From Strigamia acuminata (lineage: Eukaryota > Arthropoda > Chilopoda > Geophilomorpha > Linotaeniidae): a DNA stretch of 64,000 nucleotides. Numbering within the stretch: position 1 is the first letter of the stretch; each line of letters begins with the position of its first letter. The DNA is taken from contig OX442315.1 in the NCBI GenBank assembly GCA_949358305.1, forward strand, positions 34,932,427 through 34,996,426, in the 5' to 3' direction. The position numbers and the translations under genes are program-made. Of this stretch, positions 27,101-54,100 are shown piece by piece. The notes beneath the pieces are model-generated. The model was not told the origin of the DNA. It worked only from the letters and a program-made list of their open reading frames with translations, and ran no database searches.

Positions 27101-30100
27101 TGCAAATTGCTTGATTGCAGCTGTAGCAAGAGGGCTCAGCAGAGTAATTTCCTCGACTGTTTCTTCACTTTACAGCCTATTCCAAGTAGTTGTTGGCTTT
27201 CTTTGTTGTGTTGGCTGTTTTTACCAGCGTTAAATTGACGTCTTTGTTCTCAGAAGTAACCATTTGTTGCTCGATTCAAATTATTTCCATGGAACCAGAC
27301 TTTTGACTCAGTTTGTATACTCAACTATTTGATCATAAGCCGAGAAATTTTGCACCATTTTTAGCTTTCAAAACTGTGAGGGGGAGGTGGGGGGGGGGTT
27401 ATAAATGGGTCAATAAAAGAAAATTACTTGCATTTCAGTGATATGACCAAAACGTGATGGAAAAGCCAAAAAGTAACATGACTATACTCTTGTTCGAGTC
27501 AAGAAGGCCCCTAAATCTCATTGGTCGAGCCATTTTACTGGTGTAGTAATCCAAAAAAATAGACCCAAACACCAGAATTGCATTACAATGTACAGACGTA
27601 CAGACCAAATCCCATCCGAATCCTATGAAAGATTCGAATCTCTGACACGCAGATTCTGATTGTCGTACCCCCTGGATGTACCCCACTCGCCACACAGAAT
27701 TATACAAATACAGTATATGACTTATTAAATATAGTAGAAAAGTTCAGACGTCTACTAATGTAACAATCATCAATCGGTACAACATCTGCATTCAGTGAGC
27801 CACTAGGGACCTGCATAAAATCTTTATGCATGTAAAGGGCACCGCAGTCAAAAAAGCTTGAGAACCGCTGTGTTAGGAACAATAGCAGTCGCAATGCGCA
27901 TACAAATCTTAAATATTGTTACGTGGCCAGACTGACTACTGTTTGACCACGTAAATACTTTACTATTAAACTGGGGGTTTGTAATTGCATTAAGTTAAAC
28001 TAGCATTTAACTGTGTTGCTAATAAGAAGGAAATAAAGAGGACTCATTGTATTATTAATAAAATATAACTGTATGTTTATTAAATCATAAATACAATCTG
28101 AAATGAACCAAAGATTAACTTAAAACTAAATCTTATAAAACTATCTTAAATCTAGTAAGCATGAATAACTTTGGTGGGTGAAGAACCTCAAGATGCCGCG
28201 GCAGTACCTGCCCGACAACCTCTCGGAATGAAAGCTCGGAATGAACTGACGTTTCAGTTCTCCTCATCAGCCAAGTAAACTTGGGTGATTCTACTATTAC
28301 TTAATGGGTAAATTAATGAGATCATTCGCTTAAGGCGAACTCTAGTGAGGGTTTACAGCAATAATATACACTACATTCACACTACATTCAATGTGAATGA
28401 AAATGAAAACAATAACAAAATTAAGAAAAACAATATCAACTTCAAATAATAAAAAAATAATGTCTCTGCTCGCTCCAGTACACCTGGGCTCACATCATTG
28501 ACGAATAATACAAAATAAATAATACACAAAAAAAATAATTTCACACAACTCTTAATGTCCGATTAAGGCTGGTTTTCCTCCTTTTCGAATGGGATCAACT
28601 TCTCGTGTAAGATCTCGTACACTATTCGCTGGCGCAAATCGATCGGATGGCCATGGCGCATGTTGTCCCTGTCTTCAATATATCGGCGGGCAAAATATAA
28701 GATAGTGGGCCCGCAGCTGTCGCCGTCAAGCTGTTGCATACGGGGCGGGTCCCACTTCTCATAGCCCCGTGGAAAAACCATTCCAGCCCCGACAATACAA
28801 TTATGCACTCGCTCCCAAGCAGGGCAACTGAAAGTCAGAACCCCACTCGGATCGTAGAGCGTTACCTGTGTTGGAAATTTGGTCCAATCGACCACAAACA
28901 ATTGCCAGTGATCGATTTCCGGTATAGGAAAAATCCAAATTGACTTCCCATAATGGTCATGGGTTTTCTTCATCCATCTCCATGCTTCTGGAAACCGCTC
29001 GGCGTCTAGTATCATTTCGACAAAGTCGACTCTGACTGCCCATACTCGTTCATTAAATTTTGCGAGCATTCGCAAATAATGATCAATCACACTTGGATGA
29101 ACCCAAGCCCTTTCACCTGGCGCAAGGTGTCCAAGAGACGCCATTTCCCTATTGGTTATAATTATGGACGGGTCATCTGACATAGTAATCGCTGTTTCAT
29201 GCTTTGGTCGATAACTAAAAGCTACCGTTGCTTCCAACGCCTCCATCTGTTGATCTCCTTGTAAACGAACGCGATAGAGTATCAGTTGTTTTGGCAAAAT
29301 TACACAAGGGTCTTCTTTATACTCGCGCCGCCCGAGCGCTTTCGCACGCTGGATATTGCGTCTGATCTTGGCCTCATACTGAAGCAATTTATCTGCCGCA
29401 CGAAACCATGCTTCAAAAACCAACCGTCCATCAAGGCCTTTCAGACCTTTTTTCCTCACTTCCTCGGTCATACAGCGCTGCTCGACTCTAAGTTCTCCAA
29501 GACGCTTCTCATTTCGGGTTACTGTCTTCTCAGCCTGCTTCTTGATGACTTGAAGTCCCTTTTTCGTGAATGCGCGCTTTTCCGCTGTATCCGCCATTCT
29601 TCTCCTTTGCTCACAGCGTTTTCGGCGCTCAATCTTGCTAAGTTGTTTCGGCGTCAAGGGCTTGTCATAAACTTTCGGCCGCGCACCGAGTTCTTTACGT
29701 TCGGAGAATGGTCGCTTAAATGTTACCAGTTCGGACAACGGTTTAATGGGAACAGTTGCAATGTCTTCCTCCTCAGCCAAGACATCCAAGTGTTCCAACT
29801 CCGACTGCCTGTCATATAAGTCAAACATCTGGGTCGAAACTCCCGAACACACGGAAATATTGTCGTCTTCGTCTGAGCTGTCTTTTACGTCCATCCGACT
29901 AAATTTTCCCGTCATATCGTCCATTCAAGTCTAATATGTGCAAAAATAAATTAAATTCATTAATTACAATTGATTAATGGCCAATACAATTCATGTTCAC
30001 AATCAATTTGTCTAAATTTCGTTAAACTTTTAACTTTATACAATATTCAAATTATTTCATCTAAACCAATTAAATATTCATAGCTATTTCTATTAAATTT

Positions 30101-33100
30101 CAAAATTAAATGTCAAGTTAACATTTCAAAAATGTGCGAAGTTCTCTTTATTCGCTGGAAAAATGGCGATAGATTCGTTCCGTTCTGTTCACTTTCGGCA
30201 CTTTTATTAATATTATCCAAAACTGGAGAAAAATGTCTCAAAATTGTTCAAATCAACTAGTAAATTCGAGTTATTCTTGGTTCACTGCAAATAACTTGCG
30301 TTCACTTAAAGAAAAGCTAGTAAAATGCAGTGTAATCTTGGCGTGGTTGCGATCTAAGTCGTCGTGACCGGAAATCACTTTCAGCAGGACGTCGCGCATG
30401 CGTATCGGCGCCAACAGCATTTGCGACACCTGGTGATGGTTTCTGCAACCGATTCTTCTTGCTTTCGTCTGGCGACGATTTTAGCAACTGATTTCGCTGT
30501 TCTAACTCAACTTCCTTTTTCACTCGACGTGCCTCAATTTCTTTCGGCCCGTAAATTGCCTTCAATCGCTCTCTTTCAGTTAGAACCGGCGAATCCGACG
30601 TTTTATCTCCGGATTCAAAGAAATTCCTCAACGAAATTTGATCATCATCATCAATAAACCTTTCCTTCGCTCCTACTTTAGGCCTATCTCGCGGATCATC
30701 GTCCTTCTTCACAATTTCCGCATTTTGATCGTCTTTTTGCGAACTTCCTTGCACTTCATCAGAAAATGTTACTTTCTTTGGTGGTAAATCCTGCAGAATA
30801 GTTTCTGGAATTTCCTCTCTCGGCTTGTATGGTTTTAAACGCTCAACATTGACAATACTAGTTTTCTTTCCTGATGAATTCCTCACTTCATAATCGTTTG
30901 GCGCTGTGCGTCTAACTATCTCATATGGTCCAGAAAATGGTGGCAGGAGTTTTTCGCTTAACCCTACTTTCCTATTTGGGGTTTTCAAGTAAACTAGTTC
31001 TCCTGGTTCGAATTCAACCACAATTCTGTCCAAATCAAATCTTCTCTTGCTCCTCTCACTCTGCCATTCTAATCTTTCGTTGGCGATTTTCCGCATCTCC
31101 CGCATAAATCTAGAAGTGCGAAGAGTGAATTCCTTTCGAGGAAGGTTCAAGTTCACATCCACACTCAAATCAACTTCATAACCTTTCAACAAATAATATG
31201 GGGTATATCCAGTTGTTTCATGGACTGCTGAATTATAGGAGAAAATGACAAATGGTAAAAATTCATCCCAATCTGTGTGATCTTTATTAGTATAACATGT
31301 CAACATTTTGGCAAATGTTGCATTAAATCTTTCCGTTAATCCGTTGGTCCTTGGATGGTACCCGGAAGTAGATTTGTGCTGGGATTTAAACAGTGCTGAT
31401 ACTTCATTGATCATTTCGTTCCTGTACTCTGTCCCCTTATCGCTGAGTATCTCGCGTGGACTTCCCTCTTTGAGCATCACCTCGAATACAAGAGTTTTCG
31501 CTGCTTCCAACGCTGTACATGCTGGAGCCGCTCTGGCGATGACTGCACGCGACAAGTAATCAGTGATAACAAAAACATATTTATTTCCACTATTTGAAAC
31601 TGGAAAGCTTCCTAACGTGTCTATACCAATCCTCTCAAACGGTCTTGAAATCGTCGACCAAGGTTGTAATAAACCTTTTTGTGGAGTGGTCATTGACTTA
31701 CTTCCTGCGCAATGTGGACAACTGAGAACGTAATTCCTTACGTCCCTGTATATCCTCGGCCAAAAGAATCTTACTCTAATTCTTTTCCACGTCTTATTTA
31801 GGCCGAGATGAGCACCTACGAGCCCGTCATGCATTTCTTCTAACACTTGCTTACGTAAATGCTGCGGTACTACTAAAAGGTTTCCTTCCATGTTTAGAGA
31901 ATTGTAACTTTTCTTTCTAAACAACGTGTTATCCAGGAGAACGAACTGTTTTAAAGGACGTTTCCTGTTTCTTGGAAGTTGCTCAATGTTCTTCATTGCG
32001 GTGATGATCTCCAAAATTTTCTCGTCCTTACGCTGTTCTACAGGTAAGTTGAGTTTTTCGAGAAGTAGTAAGGGAACAATTTCTTTTTCTTCCTCACCAA
32101 TCTCTTCTTGGATTCGGCTAAGAGCATCTGCGTCCGTGTGCTTCTTGCCTGACTTATGCATCACATCGTAGTCGTAATCTACCAGTTGTAAACTCCACCT
32201 GGCCAACCTACCGTTGGGATTTTTCACCTTATTCAGCCATTGTAACGCAGAATGGTCTGTCACAATTGTAAATTTCCTACCGTAAAGATATGGTCTGTAC
32301 TTGTTAATGCCGAATATTATGGCTAAACATTCTCTTTCCGTAGCTGTGTAATTTTGTTCCGCTGTACTTAACAATCGACTGGCGTAACAAATCACATGTT
32401 CTTGCTTGTTAATACGCTGCTTCAAAATTGCACCAAGCCCATAAGCACTTGCATCCGTAGATACAATGAATGGCTCTGCAAAATTTGGATGTGCCAATAC
32501 TGGTACCGTAACTAAAGCTGTCCGTAAGGCCTTAAACGCTGTTTCCTGTGGTGGTCCCCAATCAAAAGCTTCATCTTTGCGAGTTAAGTTGGCTAAGGGC
32601 TTAGATACGTCCGCAAATCCTGGAATAAACTTTCGATAATACGAACATAAACCCAAAAACCCTCTCAACTGCTTCAAATTTGTTGGTTTTGGAAATTTAG
32701 CTACACTTTCCAAATTACGTGGATCAGGTGACACTCCATCAGAATCAACTATGTGGCCTAAATATTTGATGGTATTAGTACCAAACGTACATTTGCTAAG
32801 TTTAACCTTTAAGTTTGCCAACCGCAGCTTACTGAAGACAGCATCGAGATCCTGAAGATGCTGGTCAAAAGTCTTCGAGAAGATTATAAGGTCGTCAATA
32901 TAAGCTATACAGACCTTGCCAAGAAGATTACCAAGCACCTTGTTCATCAATTTCTGAAACGCAGCTGGGCTATTACATAATCCCATTCCTAGGACGTTAA
33001 ACTCAAAATGTCCGCTTGAAGTGGTAAACGCTGTTTTTTCACGATCTTGTTCATCTATTTCGACTTGATAATATCCTTGAATAAGATCCATCATCGAAAA

Positions 33101-36100
33101 ATACTGGGCCCCTGCCAGTTGGTCCAATGTATCGTCAATTCTGGGCAGTGGGTATACCATTTTCTTTGTGATCGCGTTTAACCTCCTCCAATCGACACAA
33201 AATCTCCATTTACCGTCTCTTTTCTTGATGAGAAGTACTGGTGCACTCCATGGACTTTCTGACTCTCTAATGACTCCCATCTCAAGCAACTTTCTGGTCT
33301 CTTCTGCCTCTACTTCTTTTTCTGCGATTGAACGTCTATAAGGCTGCAAATGTATTGGATCATGGTCCCCCGTATCAATTTTGTGTTTAAATGTTGTTAC
33401 TCTACCTAAGTCTTTGTCTGTGGCTGCAAATCTATCCTGATTCCTTTGAAGTAACTGCTTCATCTGCTCTTGTTGGCTTTTGTTCATCTTATCTTTAGCA
33501 ATCGAGGAGTCAAAGTCAAAGCAATGCACTTGCTTTTCATCTGTCAACTCAACCGCTTTGGTTGAGGAGTCAGTGCAATACACTTGCTTTTCATCCAACA
33601 ACCCAATCTCGATAATGTAATACGCCTTACCAATTGCAGATTTCTCCTTCAGAAAGACTGATTTGTTTGTTGGATTAGCCACACGCAGAACTCCTTTACC
33701 ATACTCAAAATTTGTTAATGTTTTACAACACAAAATTCCAAACCTATCTATTACATTTCCTAGAGGTTCCATAAACATTTCTGTGGTTAATTTTGTATTT
33801 AAATAAACTGGTATAACGCATTCATGCATTGGTGGAATTGAGATATTCTTCATTACTCTGGCAACATAACTCTGGTCCGAAAATGATCTATTTATTGGAA
33901 AAACTGCTTCTTCTACTCCACTATCATTGTTCCGGCCCACAAAGATTTTTTGTAAATCATAATCGACGACAGTTCTCGTTGACCTCATGAATGGATCCCC
34001 CAATAAAAGCTGATGATGAAATCCTGACACTATTAACACTTCCACTCTATAGGTCAGTTTTCCAATTGCAATGTTCATTTTTGTTTTACCCACTGGAACT
34101 ACCAAATCCTTTCCTATCCCACGTAGCCTAATGTTAGGGCTGGGTGAATAATCCAATTGAAGAGCTATTGCAACTTCTTCGCTTAGCAGGTTTCGTTTGG
34201 CTCCAGTGTCCATTACCGCTTTTATTTCCATTTCTTTTACAATTACTGGGATCTCCAACAATGATTCTGATACCTGAACGTCAATTATAATTATCTTACT
34301 CTTCTTCTTTTGTCTTTTCCTTTTCTTTGGGTGGCAACAATTTCTCTGTGGCCGTTCAACTAGTTTTTCGAATTTTGGGCCTTCGTTTGTGCCTGAGGAT
34401 TAGGGTTTCCATCTTGCTGTTCACCTCTTCTCCTCTTTTTATTCCACTTCCAGCTGTTACTTCCACCTCTTTCCTGTTGCTGTTGTTGCTGTTGTTGTTG
34501 CCTGGGTGGATTGTAAAACTCACAGCTGAAATGATGATAACATCCGCATGAACGGTTATTAGAATTATTACTATTGTTAGTATTATAATTATTGTAATTA
34601 GGGTTAAAGCCTTGTCTACTGCCTCTACTTCTACCTCCTTGATTATACTGTCCCCTATTCCTTATTGGCGCATACCACTGATTTTGTATCAGTATCGACT
34701 CTTCATCCAGCAAATCCACTGACTCTGCCTCTAACAATCGCCGCTTTAAATCAGCGACTTCAGCTATTAACTCAGCGTGGGTTGGTTGGGTCCCCACGGT
34801 TCCACTCAGTTTACCTGCTGTTACCGGGATCACCTTCTCATCCACGATTTTTTTAAACGCTGCAAGTAGAACATCTGCTGGGTCTTTTACTTTATGACTT
34901 TCGAATAACTTAATTCTCTCTTCCATATCCGCCAAAGTCTTCGGGAATACAGTAATCAACATCTTTTGCATTTCCGGCTTCAATCCTTGAAAAATATAAT
35001 TAATCTTCAAATTCTCAGGTAATTCTGGTCGCGCATAAGCACATTCGGCCAAGACCTTCTTCATAAATGCATCGGCTTTACCATCTGAATGCCTCATAAA
35101 ATGAAGAGTGTTCAATACATTTTCCTGGCTTTTCCTGAACTTCTTTTCGATTTGTGGCTTCCATTCTGTCCAAGTCCAGGTTGGATTCGTTTTATATTGT
35201 TCCACAAACCATGCCAGTCCGTCAGTCTTAAGGGCTAACGGCAATTGTTTCACTCGTTCATCATCTGATGCTATTGTAGCTTCATAAGCCACAAGCCATT
35301 GGTCAATGTTACCTTTTTCCGTATCATAACAAACAACTTCGCGCTTTTGTATCAAAATACCCTTGAGAAGATCAGTTAAAACTGTTGTTGGATCCGCCAT
35401 CTTGGATACAGTTCCTTTTGATGTGGATTCCTTTAATTTTACTGGCGTTAACAATTCAAATACTGATTGAAAAGACTTTGATTGCGCAAATTTTAATGGG
35501 GTTGCAAAAACAAGTTTATCATCCAATGTGGAAGTATTTTGCTCAACCTCCTTTATTCCAGGTTCCGACTGTGAAGTTGTTTTCCTTTTTCTAACCGCTA
35601 CTTTGGAATCATCCACTGTGCTTACTAATTCTCTTTCTAATTCTTGATTCTTTAAGTCCAGTAGATTATCCACTTGCGCCTGTGATAACTTAACTGGCTG
35701 ATCCACTGTTAAGCCTTTAATTATACCTTCACTTTATTCACAGAACGCTCTTAACAACTCACAACTTTTACTAACCCTGAAATAAACTTATGCACAATTA
35801 ATTATCACAATTAGTCACTAATTCAAAATAAATTTCAATAACAAAAAAAAATTATTATTATTTCCTGAAAAATAATCAAAATTAATCATCAAAATCAACA
35901 TAAACTTCTACATAAACCAAAAAGAAAACATTTCCTATAATTGAATCATTATTAATATAAGTTTTATCATTAAACAAACATTGAATATTCACCACTCTTA
36001 ACCTCCAAAACAACCTCATTTTATTATATAAATTCAACTTGGGTAAATATCTTTAATAAATTCCAATATGTAAATCTTATTAGTGCACTATAATTAAATA

Positions 36101-39100
36101 TTCAACTTCAATTGACTTTAAAAGAAAGTTTTCACAATGAGTCACCTTTCAATCTTATCACTCATGCAAATGAGTTTGCAACTTTTCAAAATTTTATATG
36201 AGTTTCACTTGAATTTTACTGAATTTTAATGCAAATTTGTACGAATTTCAAATGGATCTTCTAATTTTAGCAAATAACTGGCCAATTTCACTTTACTTTT
36301 ACTACTTTTCACTACTTTTAGCCAATTAATGGGTCTCAAATAGAAAGAACCGCAATCTCCACCACTTTGTTACGTGGCCAGACTGACTACTGTTTGACCA
36401 CGTAAATACTTTACTATTAAACTGGGGGTTTGTAATTGCATTAAGTTAAACTAGCATTTAACTGTGTTGCTAATAAGAAGGAAATAAAGAGGACTCATTG
36501 TATTATTAATAAAATATAACTGTATGTTTATTAAATCATAAATACAATCTGAAATGAACCAAAGATTAACTTAAAACTAAATCTTATAAAACTATCTTAA
36601 ATCTAGTAAGCATGAATAACTTTGGTGGGTGAAGAACCTCAAGATGCCGCGGCAGTACCTGCCCGACAACCTCTCGGAATGAAAGCTCGGAATGAACTGA
36701 CGTTTCAGTTCTCCTCATCAGCCAAGTAAACTTGGGTGATTCTACTATTACTTAATGGGTAAATTAATGAGATCATTCGCTTAAGGCGAACTCTAGTGAG
36801 GGTTTACAGCATTAATTCGAATCGTTTAGTTACGGAAGCGAGGTGGCGACAACTGGTTCACAGTGCGCTCGTCAACCTCGTAACAATATCAAAAAGAGTA
36901 AGTCTAACGAATGTTAACCAGAAAACCAGTCTTGTTGCAGTTCCCGTAAAGCCCCGAATTGTGGCAGTTTTTAGACATTAAACGCCCGGTCCAATTAAGT
37001 GCCGGGTGAAAAGCATTGGCCAAAATGAAAAAAATTCATTATAGTGGAAGAATTGGCTAAAATCCCTGTGAAAATAAGGTATTTTTTGAATTTTGGACAC
37101 GTTTATTCTGTTTTGGGGAATTCCTTGGGATTTTAGCCAATTTTTCTCGCTTTTTTGGATTATGCGCCAAGTCAAAATAATCGCCCGAGTTGAAATAGGC
37201 AACTGAGGGGTCGGCACTAGGGTTTCTCCAAATCGGGACTTTTGGTAAAACGGGTATTTCGGTATTCAATATTCAAAAAACCGGTAAACTCTGATTTTTC
37301 GGTAATAAAGTAAATTAAAATAGCTACAATTTAAATATTTTTTTCATTTTAATCGTAATGTTTTAATTGTAATTTTTGTTTATTTTTTTTTAAATATTAT
37401 TTTGAATGGGTTGTAGCAGTTTGATGAATGTGGGGTTGATATGTTATCAGGTGGTGGTTTTATTAGTTGAAATTGAATTTTTTTTTTTAAATTGATAAAT
37501 TGAGAGTTTATAAGATTTTTAAGTTAAGAAATTCGATAAACTCACATTTTTAAGTGAAAAAATCATTTAATAAAAACTGCATTTCAAGCTGTTTGCCATG
37601 ACATTTATTAAGTCTTTTCTTATAAAATATTGCAAGTTGCCAAATGTTTCCCTTGTAAACAGATGTAAAACTAAATCAAAGGCTTTCAGTATTGTAAAAC
37701 AGACATTTTGTGTCATCCGACATGAAATCACTTTCCACTGGAAATTAGAATGTCAATCCTCAGCGGGAATTGAATTTCCATAACACGGAGACCTCAAGTG
37801 TACCACCTTATCACATTTTTTTTCATGGCTGTCATTTATCACTTTGATAATTGCATTATTTTGTCAAACGTAGCTCAATGTAGCAACAAAAAAAAATTTC
37901 TCCTACAAACTGCTTCGAGTTGCTGTTGAGCTACCTACCTTGTTTTTGCAGGGTTTAGACATAAGCCAAACCCTAAATCTTGCCGCAAACCCCAAAATCA
38001 ATATTTTTAAATTACCAACCGCATTTGTTGTATCAACATTGGATTTTGGTTACATTATTGAAATAATGTTTGGTATTCAGTATACTCATCATAAAATTTC
38101 ACCAATGGCTAATTTTTAAGCGCGGTTGAGCGGATTTACCATAAATAAGGAAATGGCGTCCGGGGCTCGTTCATTTTATCGAACCACCAGGTATTGATGG
38201 TTGTTTCAGTGGCATAGCCAGGGGGTTCATGGGTGCATCTATTTGCACCCTCCTTGAAAGGTGTCATAGAAAATTTTTATTTAGGTGCAACTGGTAGTGT
38301 AAATGTCAAGTTAAACGACCCAATTTTCGAGTTTAAAATAAATTTCAGTGTAAATTTCAGTGTAAGTTCAAGCGTAAATAAATTGGCACATGAAAAATAT
38401 GTAAAAATCAGAATAAGGGGTTTCATTAAAAGGATGTACATCATTTTAGCGACACACCATTTTAGCGACCATGTCATTTTAGCGACACAAAAACCTAGGT
38501 TTAATTCCGCAAACCTAACCTTACTGGTTTTTTGATGAAAACCACTTTTTTGAGCCGGCTTGTCGCTAAAACCTAGGTTTTTGTGTCGCGAAAATGACAT
38601 GTTCGCTAAAATGGGACTTTTTGGGTAAAAATCGCTAAAATGAGCGTCGCTAAAATGACTATAACCGTTCATTAAATGAGCGATTAGTTGATTACTTTGA
38701 TTACTTTAGTTAGTCGATTACTTGATGTGTCATGTGACTGGATTCAACCAATTCATAGAATAATCATTTCATCAAATATGAAAAAAACTAAAAATGGCGT
38801 TTTTGGGTCCTAAATTTGCAAGATTTTATACGACGCACTACAAGTGCAGGCTGTTATTAAACGTATGTAACGTTTAATCATTTCAATAAATTTTAAATGG
38901 GCTGAAGTAGGCACTATTGGAACCCTGTCCTTTATCAATAATTGTATCCCTTTGACTGGGCTACAATGCGTGTAGAGACACTTCTAACTGGTAGTGACAT
39001 GCTGCAGTGGAAATGCGCATGCTCATCTCATGTGAAGCGGACCAAATTGTAATTGTACATTTCAAAGCTGTGAGGTGTTCAGCCCCGGTTGTCTTGCCAA

Positions 39101-42100
39101 CAATCGAGTCCAGTACATTAGCTAAAACGACGGGGTGTCACCACTTCAATCATTTGGAGCGAGCCGAGGTCGAAAAGCTTTGTTGCCTTATTTTATTCAA
39201 TTGATTTGCGGATTTATTCGCCTAAAGGGCTGTGTTTGACCAGTACGCTGCTAGACAGAGGTGTAGCAGAGTGTATGGCACACTTGGCATTGGCAAATAC
39301 CTGTGTAAGTGCCCGTCGATGATAGTGTGTCCCCAGAACTGGAATTTATTTTATTTAGCGCCTCAAAAAGTGCCTAAATACTAATAATAAATTGCACTTC
39401 ATTCTTGGGTTTGATTTATTTATTTATTTTATTCATCTCTTTGTGACGATTACCTTCTGGAGATAGCAATTGCTAAACTAAAGTGTGAACTATCTGTGTG
39501 AAAATGTAAAATATGCAAACCTGATGTTTTCTCAAAACATATAACATTTATTCCGGTTTGAACCTTATATAAATACTATGCCTACAAGTGGCTAAAATGA
39601 CGAGAAGTTAAACTATACAGTTGTTTGGCAAAAGCCCTGAAATAATATCATTTGAAGGCTTCAGTCATGCAATAAGAATTTGTAACGGTCTTATTGCTGT
39701 GACGTAAAAGATGTCATCTATGAATGGCTTTGGCTTCTAAATGGTCCGGGGTTTGGTTCTAAAAGGCGTGTAAATGGTTAGGCTGGGTGGGTTATATCCG
39801 AGAGGTGCGGTTGACTTTTCTGTATCGTCACACACATCGCATCGCAGATAATTGTTGTAATCAATAATTACCGCGAGATGTAACAATGTGAGAATAAATA
39901 TTCATATTAATTCTATGGAATTAATCATGATATTTTAGAGTCACAAACTTAACTAAAACTATGAAAATAAGTAAAATATATTAAAATAGCGCCGAGCTAT
40001 TTTTTGCCCCGAGTGCAATCAACATCTAAGTTAGACTTAAATGTTCCGTCAAACCAATAACGAATTGAATCGAAATATCTCGCAGGAAAGGTTATCCATC
40101 GCCGGGAAATTACTCCACTCGGTCCTGGCTGGCGGGAGAGTAACCGGGAAATTACTCCGCGTCGATTACTCTGATAATGCGTCTGTGAAATATAAATACT
40201 CCACTCTAGATTCTACATTACCAATGCGTCTGTGAATTTTACTCCACTCTAGATTCTGCACTCTACAACGGAATGTTGGCATGAAGCTGGAGGGAGTGCG
40301 TCTGTGGGTTGTACCCCACTCTAGATACTACACTTAAATGTGTCTGTGAATTACTCACTCTAGTTACAACATTTCTACAACGGAATGTTGGCATGAAGAG
40401 GCGGGCAGTGTGTCTGTGAGTCTTCTACCCACTCTAGATACTTACACTAAATACAAAGTATTTCTACAACGGATTGTCGGAACGCAGAGAAGTATAATAT
40501 GTGCTCAAGTAATATCAGTATCAAACAAAAACAGAACAAGAGCGAGCTATATCCGTTTTGCAGGGGGATATATACTCGGTGAGGAGAATAGCTGTTCAGT
40601 GATCCAATGGGATCACTGGGCAGTCAAATCCATCCAATCCCAGATCATAGGAAGTGGATACTCAGGACATAGTCTTCTACTAGGTCCACTACAGGAACTG
40701 GATACGCAGGACACATTTTGGATTAAGTCCCTTTGACTATAATCCAAAAGGAGTCCAACTCACAGTGGGTGATGGGGGGTGACTTCACCAGGTGTAGAGT
40801 TTGCACATAATTCAATAGAATTATGTGACAAATAAATCAACTAGTATTTAAACATCCAAAAGTATTTAAAAGTGTATAAAGTTGCAGTGGAATAAAATAT
40901 AAATAGTAATTTATATTTTATTCACTCAAAAATTGTCGAAATTTGAAATTGCCGCTAAAACGTATCAGCGCCATCTATTGACAAAATAAACGTCCTAACT
41001 AACAAGTGTATGACAGTGTAACCGTCACAAGTCCCCCTTAAATATATGTTAATACCTGTATTAACATACTATTTATTCCGAATATCTTGAGGATCAAGAC
41101 CACACTGTCATCTATGGAACTGGAGCTGTAATCCTTGGTAAGTAAAAACCTTTATTTTATATCTTAATAGTATAAATAAAGAGTATTTCTTAATCAAATG
41201 CTTCAAAAAATATTTATTAGGGTTATAAAACTTTCAATTATCAATAATAACTTCCATCTCTCTTTACAGGTGGACTTACAACTGCATCAAGAAAAGGCGA
41301 TAACTTAAACTAACATCAAACTCTTGTACCAAACAAATGATTAATAAAATTTAACAATTATTTTCACAAAACTTAACTTCTCACTGGAAATATAATGATT
41401 TGCAAAATAACACTTTACACGTTAAAATTCAAGTATTAAAATTAGTATTCATTTAAACAAACTCACATTGACTCGTAATCAAATTTTAACAGAATTGTTA
41501 AATTTAAATATTAAAGATCTTTGAATTATTCACAAAAACGGCATAAAATACACCTGAACCTGACTAAATCTTTGTTTCAACTCGGGTCAAGAAATGGAGA
41601 TGGAGAAAATGGACTCGTTACTTCTGGTCTTGCCTTAAAAGGGAAGATATCGGGAAAGTAACGGATCCCGACATCGTTGACGCTTTCTAGTCCAACTCTT
41701 CATCCTCAATAAATCCTTCCATGGATGTAACAACTTCCGAGACGGCTGCGGGTGGAGAATTAAGTTGAATAGCTACCAATTCCGGTACTACATCTGTCTC
41801 AACGTCATGGGCCAGGGGATTCAGGAGCATTCTGTGTTGTTCCTCGGTGAATACTTCCAGGGGATCAGGCCCTCCTAACGGAATGGTGTTAGCGCTGGTT
41901 GGCTCGGAGAAAACCAAGTGATGGTCGGGTAAGCCAGAGTGCCATCCCTCACGAATCAACGGGTGTGCTGCTGCTGAGACCTGCTGTAAAATCTTACACC
42001 AAATAAAAGAGCGAGTTTGAAAAGATTCCGGCCGGGATGGATGAAAAATCCATTGGATCACGGCCAGTGGCACGCTCAAATCTGGAATTCGGTCGTTTGA

Positions 42101-45100
42101 AATCGACACACTAATACGTTTAGCTGCTTCCAATAAAATTGGGAAATAATGTTCCACTTCTGCCTTCGTTTGTTCCGTGAGTGACATGTCTGGTCTCGGC
42201 ATATATGGGTGGACCAGTAAAATAACCGGTTCAGCAGCGTTGTTTACTTCGGGGAGCGGAATAGTCGCTACGATCATGTTGTTAGCCGAAGTTCCCTCTG
42301 GAGAAGCGGCGGCTTGCGGACCAGAATCGGCTGCAACCGGCGGAGAATCAGACGCAGTAACTGACGTTGGTTCGTTCGTTGGGAGGTTTTCCGCCGAGAC
42401 AACCGGAGTTCCATCAATCGCAGGGGTGGGAGTTTCCGGCTCGCGTTGTGGCTCCGTAAATCCTCCTCGTGGAGTCGAGGTGCTGGACATTTGTGCCGGG
42501 TCTACATAAATAGCCTGCTCCGGGCCCTGGTGGATGAGGCCACATTCGCGACACATCGCCCAATTGCGTGCTGTCGGCGTACTTAGCCCCTTGACGATAA
42601 ATGGAAGAATTTCTTCATTCCACATGCTGGATATGGCAACGCGTTTACCACCGTGACAGTTCACGCAGACTACGGCGTGAATGCCGGATAACAAGGACGA
42701 CAACCATCCGCATCCTGCGCACAATGGGCAGAACATCAGCTTCGACTTTGGCATGATGTTAGTCCCCAAGGCGGCAGCTTCCATATCTCGAAATACGTGT
42801 TCTCTTCGCTGCTTCCGGTAACTTGGCAAATTTAGCTCCGATATCGAGCGAGCCTGCGATGTTGGGCGGGTCAGCGCTTCGGATGAAGATGCCAACGTGG
42901 ACTTGGTGGGTCCTTTGGATTTGCCAGTCTTGCCTCGACTAGCGGTATCACGCGGATTTCGTGGTCGGGCAAACTGCCTGCTGGTAGCTGGAGGCGGAGC
43001 TTCTTCAACCGATTCTTCTTCTTGTGAGAAGTCATCTTGGCGCCGTCTCCTCGAGGCAGAACGGGAGTATTGTGACGAGTCGTCAGAAAAATCCCAATTC
43101 GGCGCATCATAGGTTACAACACGCTGACTAGCTTGACGGCCTCTGGAAGGACGCGAGTCGGTCGGGCTAACACCCATGGCGGTCCTAATTCGTGGCGGTA
43201 CGAGATCCGGGTTATCACGGGCCCAGTTGGCAACGAGCTCGGGGTCAGAGGAGGGATTAACAAAGCGATAATCCGTCTCTTCCGACTCTTCTGGATCCCA
43301 ATGCACGTACTGTCGCTTGCTAGCACGACCTCGGCGACTCATTGCATCTTCAAGAAAATATAAATTTTATTTGAGAACATGAATCAACCGTCGGAAATTA
43401 ATTTAATTTCAAATTAAATTAATTGTCGACCAACAACTGGATTAATTTCATAATTAATTCTTAAGTTCCCTTGTTAGTGTGTTTCCTCCATTTGTCGAAT
43501 AATTATTAAGATTAATAATTATTCTCGACTTGGCATATAATTTCATTTTATCGTTTAAAACAATATCGCTGATAAAATATTCAAATTAGTGTTTATTTAA
43601 TGAAATAAACCTAATTTTTGTATCTACACGACATAATAACTAAAAAACATATAAAAATATTAAAAAAAAAATATTTTTGTAAGTGTTTTTTAGCATCCGA
43701 CAATAGTCATTTTACATGGTTTTAATTGTACGAATAATTCCACAATTCGTCCGAGTAAATAATTTACTACCGACATCTGGTGGCGTTTGCCCCTATCATA
43801 CACGTGACTTGTTAACACATGTCTGCTCACCAATTTCCAAGGAACTTAAGAGATATTTTATCTTTCATAAAATAAACACTTACTAACTAGGTGTAGTCCT
43901 AGAAGGGTATACTTGGCTAGTTTAATGTCTAGCTTCACGTATTTGCGAGGGCTGTTCGGTTCCGGCGATGTTGGCCGATAAAAACGTTGTGCGGCGCGTG
44001 CGAATTCTAAGTCCGCCGTAATGAACGCTTAACCAAAATAAATGTTGTCAATTAATGTCAAAATATTATAAATTTTGACAAAATATTGCTTAAATGTTTA
44101 CCGGGAATTCACTTAGTGAGTTCGTGAAAGGCTTACTCGCGATTTTGTCCACGAGATGGTTTCGATAATCAGCGTCGTGTCGATAATTTCTGAATTTGAA
44201 CTGATATTCGTCAAATGAAAAAATCAGTAAAATAAACGATAAGTGTTCAAAATCATCTAGATTTTAACTCACTAAATTTCAGCGAAAATCCGTTAAAGCG
44301 TCGAAGGGTCGAGAATAATCCTTGATTTCAGTCCAGTACAAAACTTGGCGAACAAGTGAGTGATAATCTCAAACCAGGGGTTAAGGGGAGTTTCGAGGAG
44401 TAATTTGATTGGTTTGTAATTACTCATCTCGAAGTTTCTATTAACCCAAAGGGGGAAACACAGTTTCAAGTAAATGTTTACACGTAGATTAATTTAAATA
44501 TAATCGGCCGTGTAAAAATAACTCAAACATTTGTTAAATTTTATCCACATCAAAAAAAAATGTTTTTAATTAATAAAATTTAACAATTCTTCGTGAATAT
44601 GATTGGAAATATTTATTTAAAATAAAATATTTTCAATATATTGTGTCCTAACCCAACTTGACTTGTTTTAGACAATTTACGAGTTGTACAAAATCGGTCA
44701 CGTATTTTGTGTTCGGCTTGGGTCTACGTTTAGACTGTCGAACGGGAGATGGAAATCTTTTCCTCTTTTTGGATGAATTTTGAGGAGTTTCGTCCTCTTT
44801 AGAAGAAATCTGAGAAGTTTCCTCCTCTTTCTCTTCAACTAAATCCTCTGTTTCTATGGACACAGGTTCATTTATTAATTCTGAAGAATTAATAACCTGA
44901 CCTGCCATCCAATCTGGAGTCGGGTGTGATTCGTTGGTACCGACTTTCTGATCTAATGTCCATTCCTCAATCGGGTAACTTGGGATATAAGGCATTAAAT
45001 CCTGTATGTTGATCGCTTTTGCTTTCGTGTTATCAGAAAGCTTACGTAGTGTGTAGGAACCTCCGCCAAGAACAGCCGTAATTTCCCAAGGTCCATCACG

Positions 45101-48100
45101 TTTCTCAGCGAATCCTGCCGAAATCCCTTTATCTTTATTTGATAAAATATGTGTGGCTTTCCACACGAGATCTCCTTTGGCAAATTGACAAATATAATAT
45201 TTGTCTTTATGTAGTCGATCATGCTTTTCGTAATTCGATTGAATTTTCCGATGCATTTCGCTGTGTGCACGTCTAATTACGTCTAAAATGCTGTAGACGT
45301 AGGCTTCGGGATTCTCTTTGTCGAATTTGATGGCGTGTTTAGTAATACGCGGGTCAAATGGCAAAGGAACGATTCTTCCTGTATTAAGAATCATCGGAGA
45401 ACAATTTGTTGCCTCGGACTTAGCGGTGCGCATCGCAAAGGCAAAAGAATTTAAATATTTTGGCCAGTGAGAGTGAATGTCCGAGTATAAAGCTAACATC
45501 ATTTTTAAAGTCCTGTTAGCCCGCTCTGTAATATTAGCGGCAGCGTGATATGGGCTAATGTGAGCAATATCTACGTGATTTTTTCGACAAAAATCATTAA
45601 ATATTGTTGACACGAATTGTTTGCCGTTGTCGGAGATTATCTTTTTTGGATATCCCCAACGGTGGAAAACTTCGCTCATTTTATTAACGATGCATTCACT
45701 TGATGCAGTCGCTAGTGGGAAGACTTCAATCCATTTTGTACAATTATCAATGATTACTAAAATCCATTTTAATTGCGAACGACCGGCTGGTTTTGGTCCC
45801 ATCAGGTCAATGCTTACAGTCTCCCACGGGTTGGTCATGTTGTGAGGTGTATAGCTTGCCCGATGCTTTTGGTGTTGACTAGGTTTGTATTGTTGGCAAT
45901 GAGTGCAACTGCGAACGTAGTTTCGAGTGTCTTTGCTCATTCTAGGCCAGAAATACATCTGTTTTGCTCTATCTAGGGTTTTGCTCATGCCGGCATGTCC
46001 TGTAAGTGGGTGGCCATGGCATGCGAATAATGCACGTCTCACGAGAGAGCGTGGAATTACCGCCTTAAACCCGTTGCCGGAGTCGTTTAACTCTTCCTCA
46101 TCGGTCGGAGCAAAATAAATTAGCATAACACCTTTATTTTCTTCCGGTTCGTCGAGAGTGTAGCCACGAATCGCGTTTAACCAATGTTTATCCGTGACAC
46201 GATTTTTTAATTTTTCGTCTCCTTTTAGGTAAACAAGGATTTTACTACATGCTGGATCTTTAAGCTGCGCTTCGATAATTTCGTCTCGCGTCGGCGGAAC
46301 TACTTTTAGGATATCTGTTAGCGCAGTGTGTACATTTTCGTGATTACAATTGTGGACATCTATATGTCTGCAATTTTCTCTTGTACATCCTTCTTCCTCC
46401 CCCTTTTCTCCAGAATCATGAAATCTAACTGGATTATATGATTCTGAGAAAAAGTCTAAACTAAGGCCAACATTTGTAAGAAAATGTTTGCGCTCAGTTT
46501 CCGTCACTTGTAAAGATGCACACCTGTTTCCATTCCAAGTTGGATAGAAATGGGTGATCTCCTCTGGTTCGATATAATCATAATCCGGAGTGTCTAGTGC
46601 AGACAGTGGAGCGCGTGATAATGCGTCCGCTACTTGGTTCATTGCGCCGCGTCTAAAAATAATTTTAAACGCGCCACATTGTATTTTGACGGCCCAACGA
46701 CCAAACCTTCCGGATGGTTCCGGCGTACTCATCAACCAGCTAAGGGCTTTAGCATCGGACTCGAGAGTGAAAGTCGTGTATTCTATATATGGGCGAAATC
46801 TCTCGATTGCCCATACAACGGCCAAACACTCCAATTCCGGCGTAGAATACCTTACTTCGGCCCCGTGTAACACTCGACTGGCGTACGCGACTGCTTTCGG
46901 GACCATAATTAATTTCTGTTTCTTTTCACAGAATAATTCGACATCTTGGCAGAGTACTGCACCTAAGCCTGAATGAGAAGCATCTGTCAAAATGACAAAA
47001 GGCTTATTCATATCTGGCATGTGGAGAAGGGCTTGGTCCTTGTCACACAAAATATCTTTGATAGTTTCGAATGCAGTTGTTTGTGGATCATCCCACACAA
47101 ACTTTGCTTGATCATGCATAATATTGGTCAATGGACGAGCAATATTTGCGATGTTAGGAATAAATTTTCGGAAAAAATTCGCAAGTCCTACAAATCTTTG
47201 AATGTCTTTAGAGCAAGTCGGTTTGGGGAAATTCCTTACAGCCGAGACTTTGTCAGGGTCTGGAAGAAGAGATCCCTCCGAAATTAAATGGCCTAAAAAT
47301 CGTAATGATGTTCGACCAAATTTTGACTTGTCTTTATTGATAGTTAGATTCGCGGCATCCAACTTCTCAAGTACGTCTTTAATATGTAATAAATGATTTT
47401 CCCATGTGTCGGAAAAAATAATTATATCGTCTAAATAAACCAGAGCATGTTTATATAGAGAGTCACCCAATACGGTAGTCATGAGGTGTTGAAAAGAACT
47501 AGGTGCATTACAAAGACCAAATGGCAATCTCTTGAATTGAAATTTGCCTTTTGGGGTGTAAAAAGCAGTTTTGCTCTTATCCTCCTCCTCCATTTCCATT
47601 TGATGATAACCTTTAGTTAAATCAATGGATGTAAAGTACTTGGCCTGATTAGTATGGTGAATTAATAGGTCAATACTTGGCATTTGAATTGCATCAACTT
47701 CTGTGATCGCATTCAACCAGCGGTAGTCGATACATAATCGATACTTCCCGCCGGGTTTAGCCACTATGACGGGGTGACTTATATAAGGGCCAGTGGCAGG
47801 TTCGATCAACCCATCGGCCTCCAACTCCTCGACCAATTCCGTCATAATCGCCTTCTTGGCCGGATTGTACATTCTATATGGCTGGTGTTTCCAAGTAGCA
47901 CCAGGTTTAAACTTGATGCTGTGCTTGGCCACCTTCGTACAGCCCAGTTGGTCTCGAAATACGTTTTTTAATTGCACAAGAACGTTTACGAGTAACTGTT
48001 TTTCTTCCGCCGAACTGTTGCAGCCTTCGACGAGTTTTTCTGCCCAGTCCGGTGAAGTGGGAGTTCCTTCACCTTGGAGACCCAAAGTCTTAATGCTTGC

Positions 48101-51100
48101 TAAGCAACAGTTAAGTTCAGTGGTCTCGTACGGGGCTGTCCATCCGGGCATGTCATCACAGGTGAACACTGCTCGTCGGGGATTAGGGTTTATCCCCGTT
48201 CTACGCATAAAATTGTGACCCAAAATTAACCCACATACATTCTTGTGTAGAATTATGAAGGTCATAGGTGTAACTCTCCTTTTATCGGCCCATTTGACAC
48301 AAAGACAAACTTGACCGATAGGTCGGTGATCTATTCCGACCGCGCAGACACGCATTCCCCGGGGACATTCTTGTATGAATTCCACCGGAATTTCCGTGTT
48401 TGAGAGGAGTTGTACTCCAATAAAACATTGGGTGGCTCCAGAGTCCATTAGTGCGTTGTAATCCAAACCTCCAATTTGGACATTCATACGCGGATCATCT
48501 TTGCCACCATTAATTAATTTGCTATTGCAAAGTTTGCCAAGCAATACTTTTCGTTCTTTCTTGTTCCATTTTTCAAGTTTAAGAAGTTTTCTTAACTTGA
48601 AAACCTTGGGTACAAGCGGTTTCTTGGGTGCATTCCAGCTTCCACTGAAAATACTCAAATTTTCTAGTTGGTCTGTCATGACTTTTAAATTTTCATCGAC
48701 ACCGCCAGTAGAGCTGCTAGTCTTTCGACAGACAGGTACGGCTTCGTAAGAAATGACCAACGATGGTGGTTTATTCTTCGAATCATCGACATAAGGTACT
48801 GTGAGATGACTAGGCTTATGTCTTAATTTAAATTCATCTTTTCGTAAAAATAAATCATTTGACAATTCCGAGAAAGGAAACAACTCTTTAAGCGGGGGTT
48901 GGGCAACTTGAACAACCCCCTGAATCAGTTTTTTGTCTCGTCGGGAGTGACTGACTCAGTGGCTGCTGGTAAATGCTTAATTAACAGGTCAACCATGTTT
49001 TTCTGGAAGTCAGTAAATTTGGAGTCTAAAGTTTCTGACGTAACCCAATTTTGTTTGGGTCGTTTAAACTCGGGGTTGGGAGCAGAGTGGTTAAATCTTT
49101 TATTTGAATTTAACGAGTCTGTTTTCCCTGCTAATTTTTTGGCAAGGGCGGGACATTCTCTTTTAAAATGTCCAGGCTCGTGACAGAAAAAGCATTTTCC
49201 AGTAGTCTTTTCATACTGGGCGGCAAATAATCGCTCCATTGAACCATCGTCAGTTGAGTCGTCATTTTCCGACTCGTCTTCATTTTCAACTTCATCTTGA
49301 GTTTGCGTTAAACGTAGTGAAGTTTTAGATGGAAAAATCTTAGATTTTTCGTGAAGTTTGGGAGTAGGATGATTCTCTCGATTATCGTACTCCAATTTTG
49401 CTGCAAGTTGAGAACTTTCAAACTTAGAGCGATTTGCTCCTACATATTGTAGAATGTCATCTACTGTAAAGTTACCATACATTCCTTGTGTACATAACGC
49501 CGTGAAACTTTCTTGAGTTAAATTGTCGAATAATTGCGCACGTCCAGTTTTATCACCTGGCGGCACTTCACCTTGTTCTTGCGTATAACGCAGAAGAAAA
49601 CTATAAAGTGACTCGTCGGCTCGTTGTTTTACATTAAGAAGTCGCCTTTCTCTTGTAAGTGGAACGAGGTCGAAACAATCGAGAAAAGAGGCTTCGAAAG
49701 TTCGCCAACTGTTAAAAGTATGGCGTTGCTTATGGAACCAACGTTGTGCATGGCCTAATAGTCGTCCAGGTACAGCAGTGTGTACCATGTCGTCTAAAGG
49801 GATGCCTTTCCCGAGTGCGACAGCTTTGACGATTTCAAGGAATCGCGCAACCTCTGTCTGTTTCCCGTCAAAAATAGGAATCTCGATTCCTTTTCCAAAA
49901 TTCTGACTGGGATTACTCGGGCTTCGGATTTGACCAACTAAACCCTGAATAATTTGTTTTACATTTTCGTCCGACAAATTAGAAGCAGAGTTCGAATTGG
50001 GTGTAGACCGACTTCCTTGGTCTCTGGGTGGCGGATTTGGCTCTCCTTGAAAATTTTGATGTCTATCAGGTGGCGGTGGAGAACGAGAATTATTACGTCG
50101 GTGGAAATTATTGTTATAATTTCCCCCTCCACCAGCGTGAGATTCGTCACTACTCGAGTTAGGATCGGAGTCACGAGGATCACCAGGAGCTCCGGGAAAT
50201 CGTTGATTTCTCGGCGGAGCTCGTCCACCTTGAGAGCGGGAATTTCTATAATTCCTAAAATCTCCATCAGATTGGGTGTGAGATTGAAAATTTTGATAAT
50301 TTTCATTTCTCCCCCTTGGTTGGACCGACAGATTAGTTCGAGGCTGTGGAACTCTGAAAGAATCATTCAAATTCCCAGTGGGAGCGGGTAAAATATTATT
50401 TACAGCCGTCGCACTTGGTAAATTTCGGGAAATTGGCGCAGAAATATTTCCTTGTCCGGAATTTCCCATTCTTTCGGCCGAATTCGATCGCCAAGAACTA
50501 GTTGGTAACTGAATCAAAGGTTGAACAGATAGTGAAGAATTTAACTGCCCATTGTCGTCACGAGCAACATTCATTCGCCATCCAGGCAATTGCTGGTAGC
50601 GATATGTGGCCGGCGAACGAGGGCCAGTTCGATCTACAGAAACACTTTGTTCGTTGGTTACAACTACATCGGGAGTAATTACACGATTTCTCTCGTGATG
50701 ATTATTCGCCGTGTATTGTTGAGCTTCACACAAAGAGGAAAACTGCGTCACTTCCAATTGGTAATGGCGACAGTAAACTTCTAAATCATGTGGGACTGAT
50801 AGTGGATCCGTTCGAGAACTACCTGGGTTGGAAACGTCTCTAGGAACATTTTCTTCCCCCTGGCTTTCTAGATCAGACTCCACAATTCCTCTTGGTGTTT
50901 CACACATACCACCACGTCGTCGTGCTCCACGATTTCCTCGTGTTCCACGAACTCTTACAGGTCTACGGGCCATAATACTCAAAGAAATACACGTACAACA
51001 AGGAAAAATAAGATTTTAACTGAACTAGCGTAAATGTAACACGCTTAATATTAAACTAAGAAATAATTTGAAAAAATACAACCTTAGCTGCTGAAACTGA

Positions 51101-54100
51101 AGTGGCTTCGGAAAAACTGTCCTATTGCGTGGTCAAGAATGGTCCAAACGGGCACTGGTCACAAAGGCACAACTGGATGGTCGCACTGTCGAAAAGCAAG
51201 TGTGGCTGAATATTGGTTGTCAAACTAGCTTCCGGAAAATCTCCTTTGTCAAGACAGTCTGCTGTGATTGGCGATGTTGACAAATTCCTGATAATTTCTA
51301 ATCCGAAATTCTCAACAATGTCACATCTGGATGACCTACTCCGAGCTGCATCGTGAGTGGTTCTCTTTGTCACATTCTTTACTTTGTTAAAGATTAAAAT
51401 AATAATCAAAAACATTGAAAACAGAACAATAGAAACTTGGTCAAGTTTTTAACCAGCAAAATAAAATACTTTAACTTTTATTTTTCAGTCAGCAGGATTT
51501 CTAGTCAAATTCGTTTTTTGATCAAAATTCAAGGTTTCGAAATTTTCCAGAATATAGCTGAATATTCTGGGAAACTCAATAAAATCATAATAGATTTTTC
51601 GTAAGAGATTCGGAATTATAATGAGTTTTTTTCAAAATAATCCAAAAATTCGAATTCAGATATTTCCAAAAGATAATGAGAATTTTTTGAAAACAAATGG
51701 ATATTTCACAGTAAATTTATAGAGAAAAATCGGAAATTTTCTAATTATAATATCTATATAAAATAATCAAGAAAATTCATTTTTTCAATTTTACACTTTG
51801 ATCACAGAGTTCACTTCGATAAAATGCAACCTATCTCGGTGGGACCTCCACGTGTGACGATTACCTTCTGGAGATAGCAATTGCTAAACTAAAGTGTGAA
51901 CTATCTGTGTGAAAATGTAAAATATGCAAACCTGATGTTTTCTCAAAACATATAACATTTATTCCGGTTTGAACCTTATATAAATACTATGCCTACAAGT
52001 GGCTAAAATGACGAGAAGTTAAACTATACAGTTGTTTGGCAAAAGCCCTGAAATAATATCATTTGAAGGCTTCAGTCATGCAATAAGAATTTGTAACGGT
52101 CTTATTGCTGTGACGTAAAAGATGTCATCTATGAATGGCTTTGGCTTCTAAATGGTCCGGGGTTTGGTTCTAAAAGGCGTGTAAATGGTTAGGCTGGGTG
52201 GGTTATATCCGAGAGGTGCGGTTGACTTTTCTGTATCGTCACACACATCGCATCGCAGATAATTGTTGTAATCAATAATTACCGCGAGATGTAACAATGT
52301 GAGAATAAATATTCATATTAATTCTATGGAATTAATCATGATATTTTAGAGTCACAAACTTAACTAAAACTATGAAAATAAGTAAAATATATTAAAATAG
52401 CGCCGAGCTATTTTTTGCCCCGAGTGCAATCAACATCTAAGTTAGACTTAAATGTTCCGTCAAACCAATAACGAATTGAATCGAAATATCTCGCAGGAAA
52501 GGTTATCCATCGCCGGGAAATTACTCCACTCGGTCCTGGCTGGCGGGAGAGTAACCGGGAAATTACTCCGCGTCGATTACTCTGATAATGCGTCTGTGAA
52601 ATATAAATACTCCACTCTAGATTCTACATTACCAATGCGTCTGTGAATTTTACTCCACTCTAGATTCTGCACTCTACAACGGAATGTTGGCATGAAGCTG
52701 GAGGGAGTGCGTCTGTGGGTTGTACCCCACTCTAGATACTACACTTAAATGTGTCTGTGAATTACTCACTCTAGTTACAACATTTCTACAACGGAATGTT
52801 GGCATGAAGAGGCGGGCAGTGTGTCTGTGAGTCTTCTACCCACTCTAGATACTTACACTAAATACAAAGTATTTCTACAACGGATTGTCGGAACGCAGAG
52901 AAGTATAATATGTGCTCAAGTAATATCAGTATCAAACAAAAACAGAACAAGAGCGAGCTATATCCGTTTTGCAGGGGGATATATACTCGGTGAGGAGAAT
53001 AGCTGTTCAGTGATCCAATGGGATCACTGGGCAGTCAAATCCATCCAATCCCAGATCATAGGAAGTGGATACTCAGGACATAGTCTTCTACTAGGTCCAC
53101 TACAGGAACTGGATACGCAGGACACATTTTGGATTAAGTCCCTTTGACTATAATCCAAAAGGAGTCCAACTCACAGTGGGTGATGGGGGGTGACTTCACC
53201 AGGTGTAGAGTTTGCACATAATTCAATAGAATTATGTGACAAATAAATCAACTAGTATTTAAACATCCAAAAGTATTTAAAAGTGTATAAAGTTGCAGTG
53301 GAATAAAATATAAATAGTAATTTATATTTTATTCACTCAAAAATTGTCGAAATTTGAAATTGCCGCTAAAACGTATCAGCGCCATCTATTGACAAAATAA
53401 ACGTCCTAACTAACAAGTGTATGACAGTGTAACCGTCACATCTTGTTCACTTTTGACAGCCTATTGCTGGTGTCTAGGCCTGTGCGATTATTCTTTGAAG
53501 TGAATGCGAATGCGATACTACAGTTTGGCCATTTTTTGCGATATATTGCATCTGCGATGTATTGCTTAGAATAAGCGGTGTAATCACAAGATGGCAAGAT
53601 ATTGCAATATCGCAAAATATCTCAATATCGCAAAATATCGCAATATCGCAAAATATCGCACTATCGCAAAAATTGCAATATCGCAAAATCGCAAAATATC
53701 ACAATATCGTAAAATATTGCAATATATCGCAAAATATCGCAATATCGCAAAATATCGCACAATCGCAAAAATTGCAATATCGCAAAATATCACAATATCG
53801 CAAAATATCGCAATATCGCAACACATCGTAATATTGCAAAACATCGTAATATTGCAAAATATCGCATTATCGCAAAATATCGCAATATCGCAATGTATCG
53901 CAATTTATTTCAACACACCGAATGGCATGGCAAAAGAAAATAATTTTTAATATTTTAAAAAAAAATTATTTATAAACAAATTGAAATTAAAAATGTGAAA
54001 ATAGAATTAAGCAAATGTATTCGCAAGACATTCGGTAAATCGCATACATCGCATATATCGCGAACGACAGCTACTGACTACGTTAACTGCGATATTACAC

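Follow-up and report, generated by a model that had tools for sequence, protein, structure and literature searches.

A conserved SENP-like C48 protease gene downstream of pol in a Ty3/Gypsy retrotransposon lineage of Strigamia acuminata

The stretch analysed here, called the window, comprises 64,000 nucleotides from the chilopod Strigamia acuminata (contig OX442315.1 of assembly GCA_949358305.1, positions 34,932,427 to 34,996,426). On its minus strand, from 27917 to 36885, lies a Ty3/Gypsy retrotransposon with the target-site duplication ATAT on either side. It encodes a gag-like open reading frame (ORF), pol and, downstream of pol, a third frame, ORF3, which runs from ATG to stop over 453 codons (28563-29924). 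An earlier reading of the letters alone (hereafter the sequence-only reading) had described ORF3 as a Ulp1/SENP-type protease in place of env. The present analysis supports that interpretation overall, and the finding is stronger than first stated: ORF3 is a SENP-like C48 protease gene of a Ty3/Gypsy lineage, both conserved and selected.

The frame, its coordinates and its catalytic positions were recovered exactly as first described, with His339-Trp340, Asp358, Gln398 and Cys404 at the residues named. A chance ORF is ruled out, since first-order Markov shuffling of the region, repeated 1000 times, gave no six-frame ORF longer than 277 codons against the 453 observed. Searching the Protein Data Bank (PDB) with phmmer matched residues 248-444 of ORF3 to human SENP1 (E 1.3e-8), and a profile built from 17 diverse members of the ORF3 family matched SENP1 at 2.1e-11, all 17 of its hits at E<=1 being SENP, Ulp1 or XopD. 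The residues H339, W340, D358, Q398, S403, C404, G405 and P406 are invariant in all 36 loci whose ORF3 is open over at least 380 amino acids, and the same 36 loci display the C48 hallmark, namely the catalytic order H-D-Q-C, the H-W pair and a Q-to-C spacing of 6 (the residue alignment has 37 rows for 36 loci, the window being present twice). Trp274 is found in 36 of the 37 rows, with a gap in the other one, and is aligned to a SENP1 tryptophan that we take to be the SUMO-tunnel tryptophan. The N-terminal 240 residues are mostly helical in the predicted model and rich in arginine and lysine in their later part; the aligned members begin with letters resembling M[DE]xM[TA]xKF, and no convincing Pfam family match was obtained for this region. 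Homologues of ORF3 were not found in protein database searches at the E-values used, either with the single sequence or with the profile, nor was there a match in viral contigs or in NCBIfam.

Structure prediction, proposed by the sequence-only reading as a check, returned the SENP2/SENP1/Ulp1 fold. The AlphaFold2 model, computed from a 17-row family alignment, has a predicted local distance difference test score (pLDDT) of 77.1 and a predicted template modelling score (pTM) of 0.75, and Foldseek ranks SENP2 first and SENP1 second, both at E 1.1e-7, with TM-scores to target of 0.74 and 0.73. Among the best 50 of 215 Foldseek rows, the first 24 are all SENP1, 2, 3, 5 or yeast Ulp1 (E 1.1e-7 to 2.5e-5), with TM-scores to target of 0.71-0.77 for the listed chains of human SENP1, SENP2 and SENP5 and 0.71-0.74 for Ulp1. 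SENP7, XopD and a NEDD8 protease rank after these rows, and the processing proteases of pox and African swine fever virus (ASFV) type (poxvirus I7L, ASFV pS273R) match weakly, at E >=0.027. Adenain appears neither among the 17 sequence-profile hits nor in those best 50 rows. A hydropathy scan of four family members detected no membrane-like segment, the highest 19-residue mean being 0.69 in the window ORF3 and 0.72-1.22 in three relatives. An envelope protein, including one of errantivirus type, is ruled out by the lack of a hydrophobic signal-peptide or anchor segment together with the C48 fold; as a statement of position, "in place of env" is accurate.

Features of the element are collected in Table 1. 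Its assignment to Ty3/Gypsy follows from the TG..CA ends of its long terminal repeats (LTRs), the target-site duplication, the order of aspartic protease (PR), reverse transcriptase (RT), RNase H (RH) and integrase (IN), and Ty3-G Gag-Pol as the best PDB match of pol (5.6e-119), the 3' LTR being truncated in this copy. Pfam detected no gag or CCHC domain in the gag-like ORF, which was looked at in the window element only. The 3' LTRs of sister copies start with a purine tract followed by TGTTACG, and the window 5' LTR starts identically at 36885. Compared with these copies, some 74 bp are missing from the start of the window 3' LTR together with the preceding polypurine tract, about 355 bp being lost in all. 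The copy is thus not fully intact, contrary to the first description, whereas the position of ORF3 between pol and the 3' LTR stands, and the gag-like ORF, pol and ORF3 are all open despite the damaged 3' end. Since the LTR part kept at both ends is identical throughout, the element can still be called young. The spacer between pol and ORF3 measures 392 nt in the window copy versus 551-571 nt in 11 other measured loci of its subfamily, A. Members of subfamilies C, E and F, and to a lesser extent of G, likewise have a T-rich tract and AG ahead of the ORF3 start, which suggests that ORF3 may be expressed from a spliced message.

Table 1. Features of the ORF3-bearing element in the window
Feature	Position	Strand	Basis
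Target-site duplication ATAT, 5' side	36886..36889	-	5' flank ...GATAT then TGTTACG
5' LTR, 518 bp, ends TGTTAC...GTAACA	36368..36885	-	LTR comparison and sister copies
Putative tRNA primer-binding site, TGG... right behind the LTR	36350..36364	-	Sequence reading, inferred
Gag-like ORF (by position), 457 codons stop to stop	34360..35733	-	ORF list; overlaps pol, -1 frame
pol: aspartic protease, RT, RNase H, integrase; 1360 codons, open	30317..34399	-	Pfam, PDB match
Putative 3' splice site, T-rich tract and TAG, 6 nt before the ORF3 ATG	29931..29933	-	Inference
ORF3, C48 (Ulp1/SENP-type) cysteine protease, 453 codons, N-terminal basic helical region	28563..29924	-	Sequence, profile, predicted fold
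Catalytic C48 domain within ORF3, roughly residues 250-445 (W274, H339, W340, D358, Q398, C404)	28590..29177	-	
3' LTR, start truncated; 444/444 bases equal to 5' LTR	27917..28360	-	LTR alignment, sister copies
Target-site duplication ATAT, 3' side	27913..27916	-	Flank reading

The family was counted in this one genome. An ORF3 protein search yielded at least 95 matching stretches at 39-100% identity, 81 of them without an internal stop; the figure of 95 is a lower bound, as 93 of 456 candidates were scored, and five elements contribute two pieces each. An isolated capture in a single copy is thereby ruled out. Among 42 fetched loci, which include the window itself (L015) and one element represented twice (L031 and L043), pol lies upstream on the same strand in 39, ruling out a host gene between unrelated LTRs; no pol match was present within the fetched stretch in L029, L034 and L053. 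An open ORF3 of at least 380 amino acids from Met is present in 36 of the 42. In L029 (G000 C1:63298883-63301400) the ORF3 copy is split into two pieces about 1.1 kb apart.

ORF3 is under strong purifying selection. With our own NG86 script, the ratio of nonsynonymous to synonymous divergence (dN/dS) was below 1 in all 36 pairs of nine A-type copies, ranging from 0.03 to 0.17 at dS up to 0.68 (nine of the 12 A-type loci with an open ORF3 were used, omitting the near-duplicates L016, L017 and L023), and the adjoining end of pol gave 0.15-0.41 in 28 A-type pairs. In 14 further pairs within or between other subfamilies, the synonymous sites of ORF3 were saturated in 10, and the other four gave 0.07-0.15. 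The family therefore comprises many related elements under purifying selection rather than one unconserved copy. At the protein level, ORF3 diverges far more than the RT of the same elements, for example with identities of 42% for ORF3 versus 89% for RT.

The subfamilies A, C, E, F and G were defined from ORF3 identities. Each forms one clade in a quick ORF3 tree, E with a support of only 87. The tree of the pol end likewise keeps A, F and G as single clades and merges C and E into one, L040 of E standing beside C (both trees were restricted to 30 of the 37 rows, those whose pol end was usable, with L015 and L024 likewise omitted; L032 and L051 are weak rows of the pol tree). Because the subfamily clades of ORF3 and the pol end agree, ORF3 seems to stem from a single gain and to have travelled with the pol end since, the lineages examined being all ORF3-bearing or derived by loss. 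Within subfamily A, dS of ORF3 exceeds that of the pol end in 24 of 28 pairs and is lower in 4, and identity along element pairs shifts in blocks. The discord between ORF3 and pol inside subfamilies, together with this block-wise identity, indicates recombination between copies. The co-evolution with pol that had been envisaged thus holds between subfamilies, C and E merging in pol, and breaks down inside them, where copies are recombined.

ORF3 has also been lost repeatedly. The RT search considered the best 97 of 3987 candidates. A listed ORF3 match follows within 7 kb downstream in 35 of these, at a distance of 2.0-2.4 kb, and is lacking in 62; copies with and without ORF3 number 14 and 25 at RT identities >=97%, 1 and 21 at 90-91%, and 20 and 16 at 89%. 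ORF3-less copies were judged by their pol frame and 3' part, the latter being read for 22 of the 62 (10, 3 and 9 from the three bands in that order). In 21 of these 22 ORF3 has gone by an internal deletion of 1.1-1.5 kb, L073 being the exception. The breakpoints fall into seven clear classes, or eight if L077 is taken separately, spread over four subfamilies: A has four, C one or two, E a single one with seven loci and F also a single one. At several junctions short matching letters are common to both sides. The pol frame is open in all 22 copies, spanning 1309-1360 codons without a listed stop, and among the best 97 RT copies 73 lie in frames of at least 1300 codons, 4 of these with a stop listed. 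Since deletion classes are common to up to seven loci, copies have multiplied after ORF3 loss. Same-strand RT copies spaced 6.6-7.2 kb apart at G000 C9:1619458-1626644, C3:3400180-3407378 and C3:3644466-3651067 suggest tandem ORF3-less elements with common LTRs.

As to function, the reading preferred here, with a rough probability of 0.45, is that ORF3 is a captured deSUMOylase accessory that weakens the SUMO-dependent silencing of the element by its host. A cysteine isopeptidase of the SENP/Ulp1 kind would have been captured, most simply once, by an ancestor of the Ty3/Gypsy lineage and retained behind pol in an accessory role, perhaps with translation from a spliced message. The enzyme would most likely strip SUMO, or a close relative of it, off host proteins in the nucleus, and transcriptional silencing that depends on SUMO, by the route of PIWI-interacting RNA (piRNA) and trimethylated histone H3 lysine 9 (H3K9me3), would be weakened. 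Acting in trans, it would let any sister copy in the cell profit, which could explain why ORF3-less deletion copies recur and multiply while carriers keep ORF3 under selection. Being apparently dispensable in cis and discarded repeatedly, yet long maintained, ORF3 behaves as a trans-acting accessory would. This behaviour and the precedent of the VANC proteins, which act in trans, favour host silencing factors as the probable target. VANC proteins are anti-silencing products of plant VANDAL transposons, according to parts of PMC5735166 and PMC10398659, and a participation of SUMO in piRNA-guided transposon silencing in Drosophila is described in part of PMC7272611.

Several observations weigh against this reading. 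The Pfam C48 profile (PF02902) scored the window ORF at E 0.034 and 14.4 bits, under the curated cut-off of 20.7, and the window ORF3 is not among the 29 matches listed in a genome-wide C48 family search. The same profile matched 13 of 17 A1 members at E<=1 (best 3.1e-4), and such a cut-off governs detection without characterising the family itself. The C48 identity claimed by the sequence-only reading is accordingly borne out by the PDB profile and the fold, on which membership rests, and not by Peptidase_C48 on the window ORF. SUMO, NEDD8 and ubiquitin are not separable as substrates by sequence or fold, and the fold matches of ORF3 that are weaker than SENP include the NEDD8 protease and an XopD entry with bound ubiquitin. 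Splice-donor scoring across the element gave no site above the chosen threshold, so that the idea of splicing draws on the acceptor. Finally, fast divergence and repeated loss of ORF3 fit other accessory roles too.

An extended form of the anti-silencing idea, which we regard as possible though doubtful, treats ORF3 as a diffusible public good antagonising SUMO-dependent silencing, for which carriers would pay and which deletion copies would exploit; the fast divergence of ORF3 and its exchange between pol backbones would then arise because it tracks a moving host target. The main rival, somewhat unlikely in our judgement, is that the enzyme acts on Gag or integrase of the element itself, or on host factors within the particle, stripping SUMO or ubiquitin from them and so stabilising these proteins or helping assembly or entry into the nucleus. 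It can claim the same SENP1 matches and fold, and the place of ORF3 behind pol is constant, both in the 39 of 42 loci and in the 35 RT copies. Copies with an open pol and no ORF3 have nevertheless multiplied, so protection of Gag or integrase seems not to be needed in cis, although help provided in trans would be compatible with this.

Two further roles are improbable. Adenain processes a polyprotein in adenoviruses and possibly in Maverick elements, and ORF3 might likewise cut the polyprotein of its own element. The catalytic residues follow the order of clan CE proteases, and I7L and pS273R are weak fold matches; pol, however, already carries an aspartic protease, SENP and Ulp1 fill the leading fold rows without any adenain in the best 50 of 215, and copies lacking ORF3 have multiplied. 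There is also little to recommend a part in horizontal or cell-to-cell spread, as an env-like or infectivity accessory kept between lineages and lost in intracellular amplification. Loss of env during intracellular amplification has been proposed for endogenous retroviruses, and the env position, the pattern of loss and the rapid protein divergence relative to RT would suit such a role, whereas the hydropathy scan gave nothing like a signal peptide or membrane segment and the fold belongs to a soluble enzyme. That ORF3 is a passenger, a host SENP fragment captured without benefit and open only through the youth of its copies, agrees with repeated deletion at no visible cost and is nonetheless hardly credible, being already contradicted by the low dN/dS at appreciable dS, by a catalytic set that is invariant despite synonymous saturation in the wider pairs, and by the predominance of stop-free matches.

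Elsewhere in the window, a second LTR retrotransposon occupies 39442-53440 on the minus strand, its 1588-bp LTRs (39442-41029 and 51853-53440) being 100% identical. It has gag, a pol of 1435 codons and an extra 559-codon ORF after pol (41687-43366), in which several CxxC pairs can be seen by eye and which had no match in Pfam, NCBIfam or PDB. A short-repeat array of the TATCGCAA type (53547-53929) adjoins the 5' end of this element. The repeat (TTAGG)n is the telomere repeat of arthropod type. Of the 6 contig ends read, 2 carry it, one on C1 and one on C4, in keeping with an arthropod host.

Among known systems, Ty3/Gypsy elements (Metaviridae) are the closest in architecture, sharing LTRs, a 4-bp target-site duplication, a gag-like ORF, a PR-RT-RH-IN pol and Ty3-G as best PDB match; other lineages have nothing or env where the C48 protease ORF stands here. 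Cellular SENP1, SENP2 and Ulp1 share with ORF3 the predicted fold, the order and spacing of H-D-Q-C and the H-W pair. ORF3 differs from SENP in having SCG rather than DCG at the nucleophile and an N-terminal region of its own, and its identity to the SENP1, SENP2 and Ulp1 fold matches is 16-25%. Close kinship is ruled out with those other C48 loci of the genome that were compared: L001-L005 are exon-sized pieces scoring at best 13.4 bits with the ORF3 profile (L002), and the genome's own Mutator-like Ulp1 scores 6.2 bits. The latter (L006, L007 and L008, on G000 C1, C4 and C6) is a DNA-transposon-like ORF of 1075 codons with a C48 domain, found with equal score in six places, and shows SWIM- and PHD-like motifs by eye, as in Mutator-like elements (MULEs).

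Captured enzymes and Ulp1-type proteases have been reported from other mobile elements. LTR retrotransposons of bdelloid rotifers, as presented in part of PMC5408684, also carry a captured enzyme as ORF3 downstream of pol, in the env slot, but of a different type (GDSL esterase, DEDDy exonuclease), and the word Ulp1 is absent from that source. According to part of PMC2836005, Mutator-like DNA transposons with Ulp1 likewise encode a C48 protease, and Ginger1 elements combine a Ulp1 (or OTU) domain with an integrase of Gypsy type; Ginger1 is, in contrast, a DNA transposon without RT or LTR and has the domain within its transposase. A Ulp1 module of the Ginger or MULE kind, fused to a DNA transposase with terminal inverted repeats, does not describe ORF3, which is a separate ORF inside an LTR element. 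The NeSL/Utopia elements, as covered in part of PMC4640811, are retroelements encoding a Ulp1-like cysteine protease, but they are non-LTR, carry it as an N-terminal domain of the RT protein and are reported from nematodes. The main texts of PMC6338049 and PMC7264820, on additional ORFs of plant LTR elements, contain neither "Ulp1" nor "SUMO". No earlier Gypsy element with a Ulp1/SENP ORF was recognised, by titles and abstract starts, among the open-access papers listed, with Repbase and subscription journals outside this scope, and the novelty is provisional. The carriers of Ulp1-type proteases, which include MULE, Ginger and NeSL/Utopia elements, would be extended to LTR retrotransposons, a hint that the proteases may serve a shared purpose. 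To our knowledge, no animal transposon is known to encode an antagonist of SUMO-dependent silencing, and a conserved SENP-like Gypsy family with natural ORF3-less sisters in one genome offers a ready comparison for SUMO-based anti-silencing.
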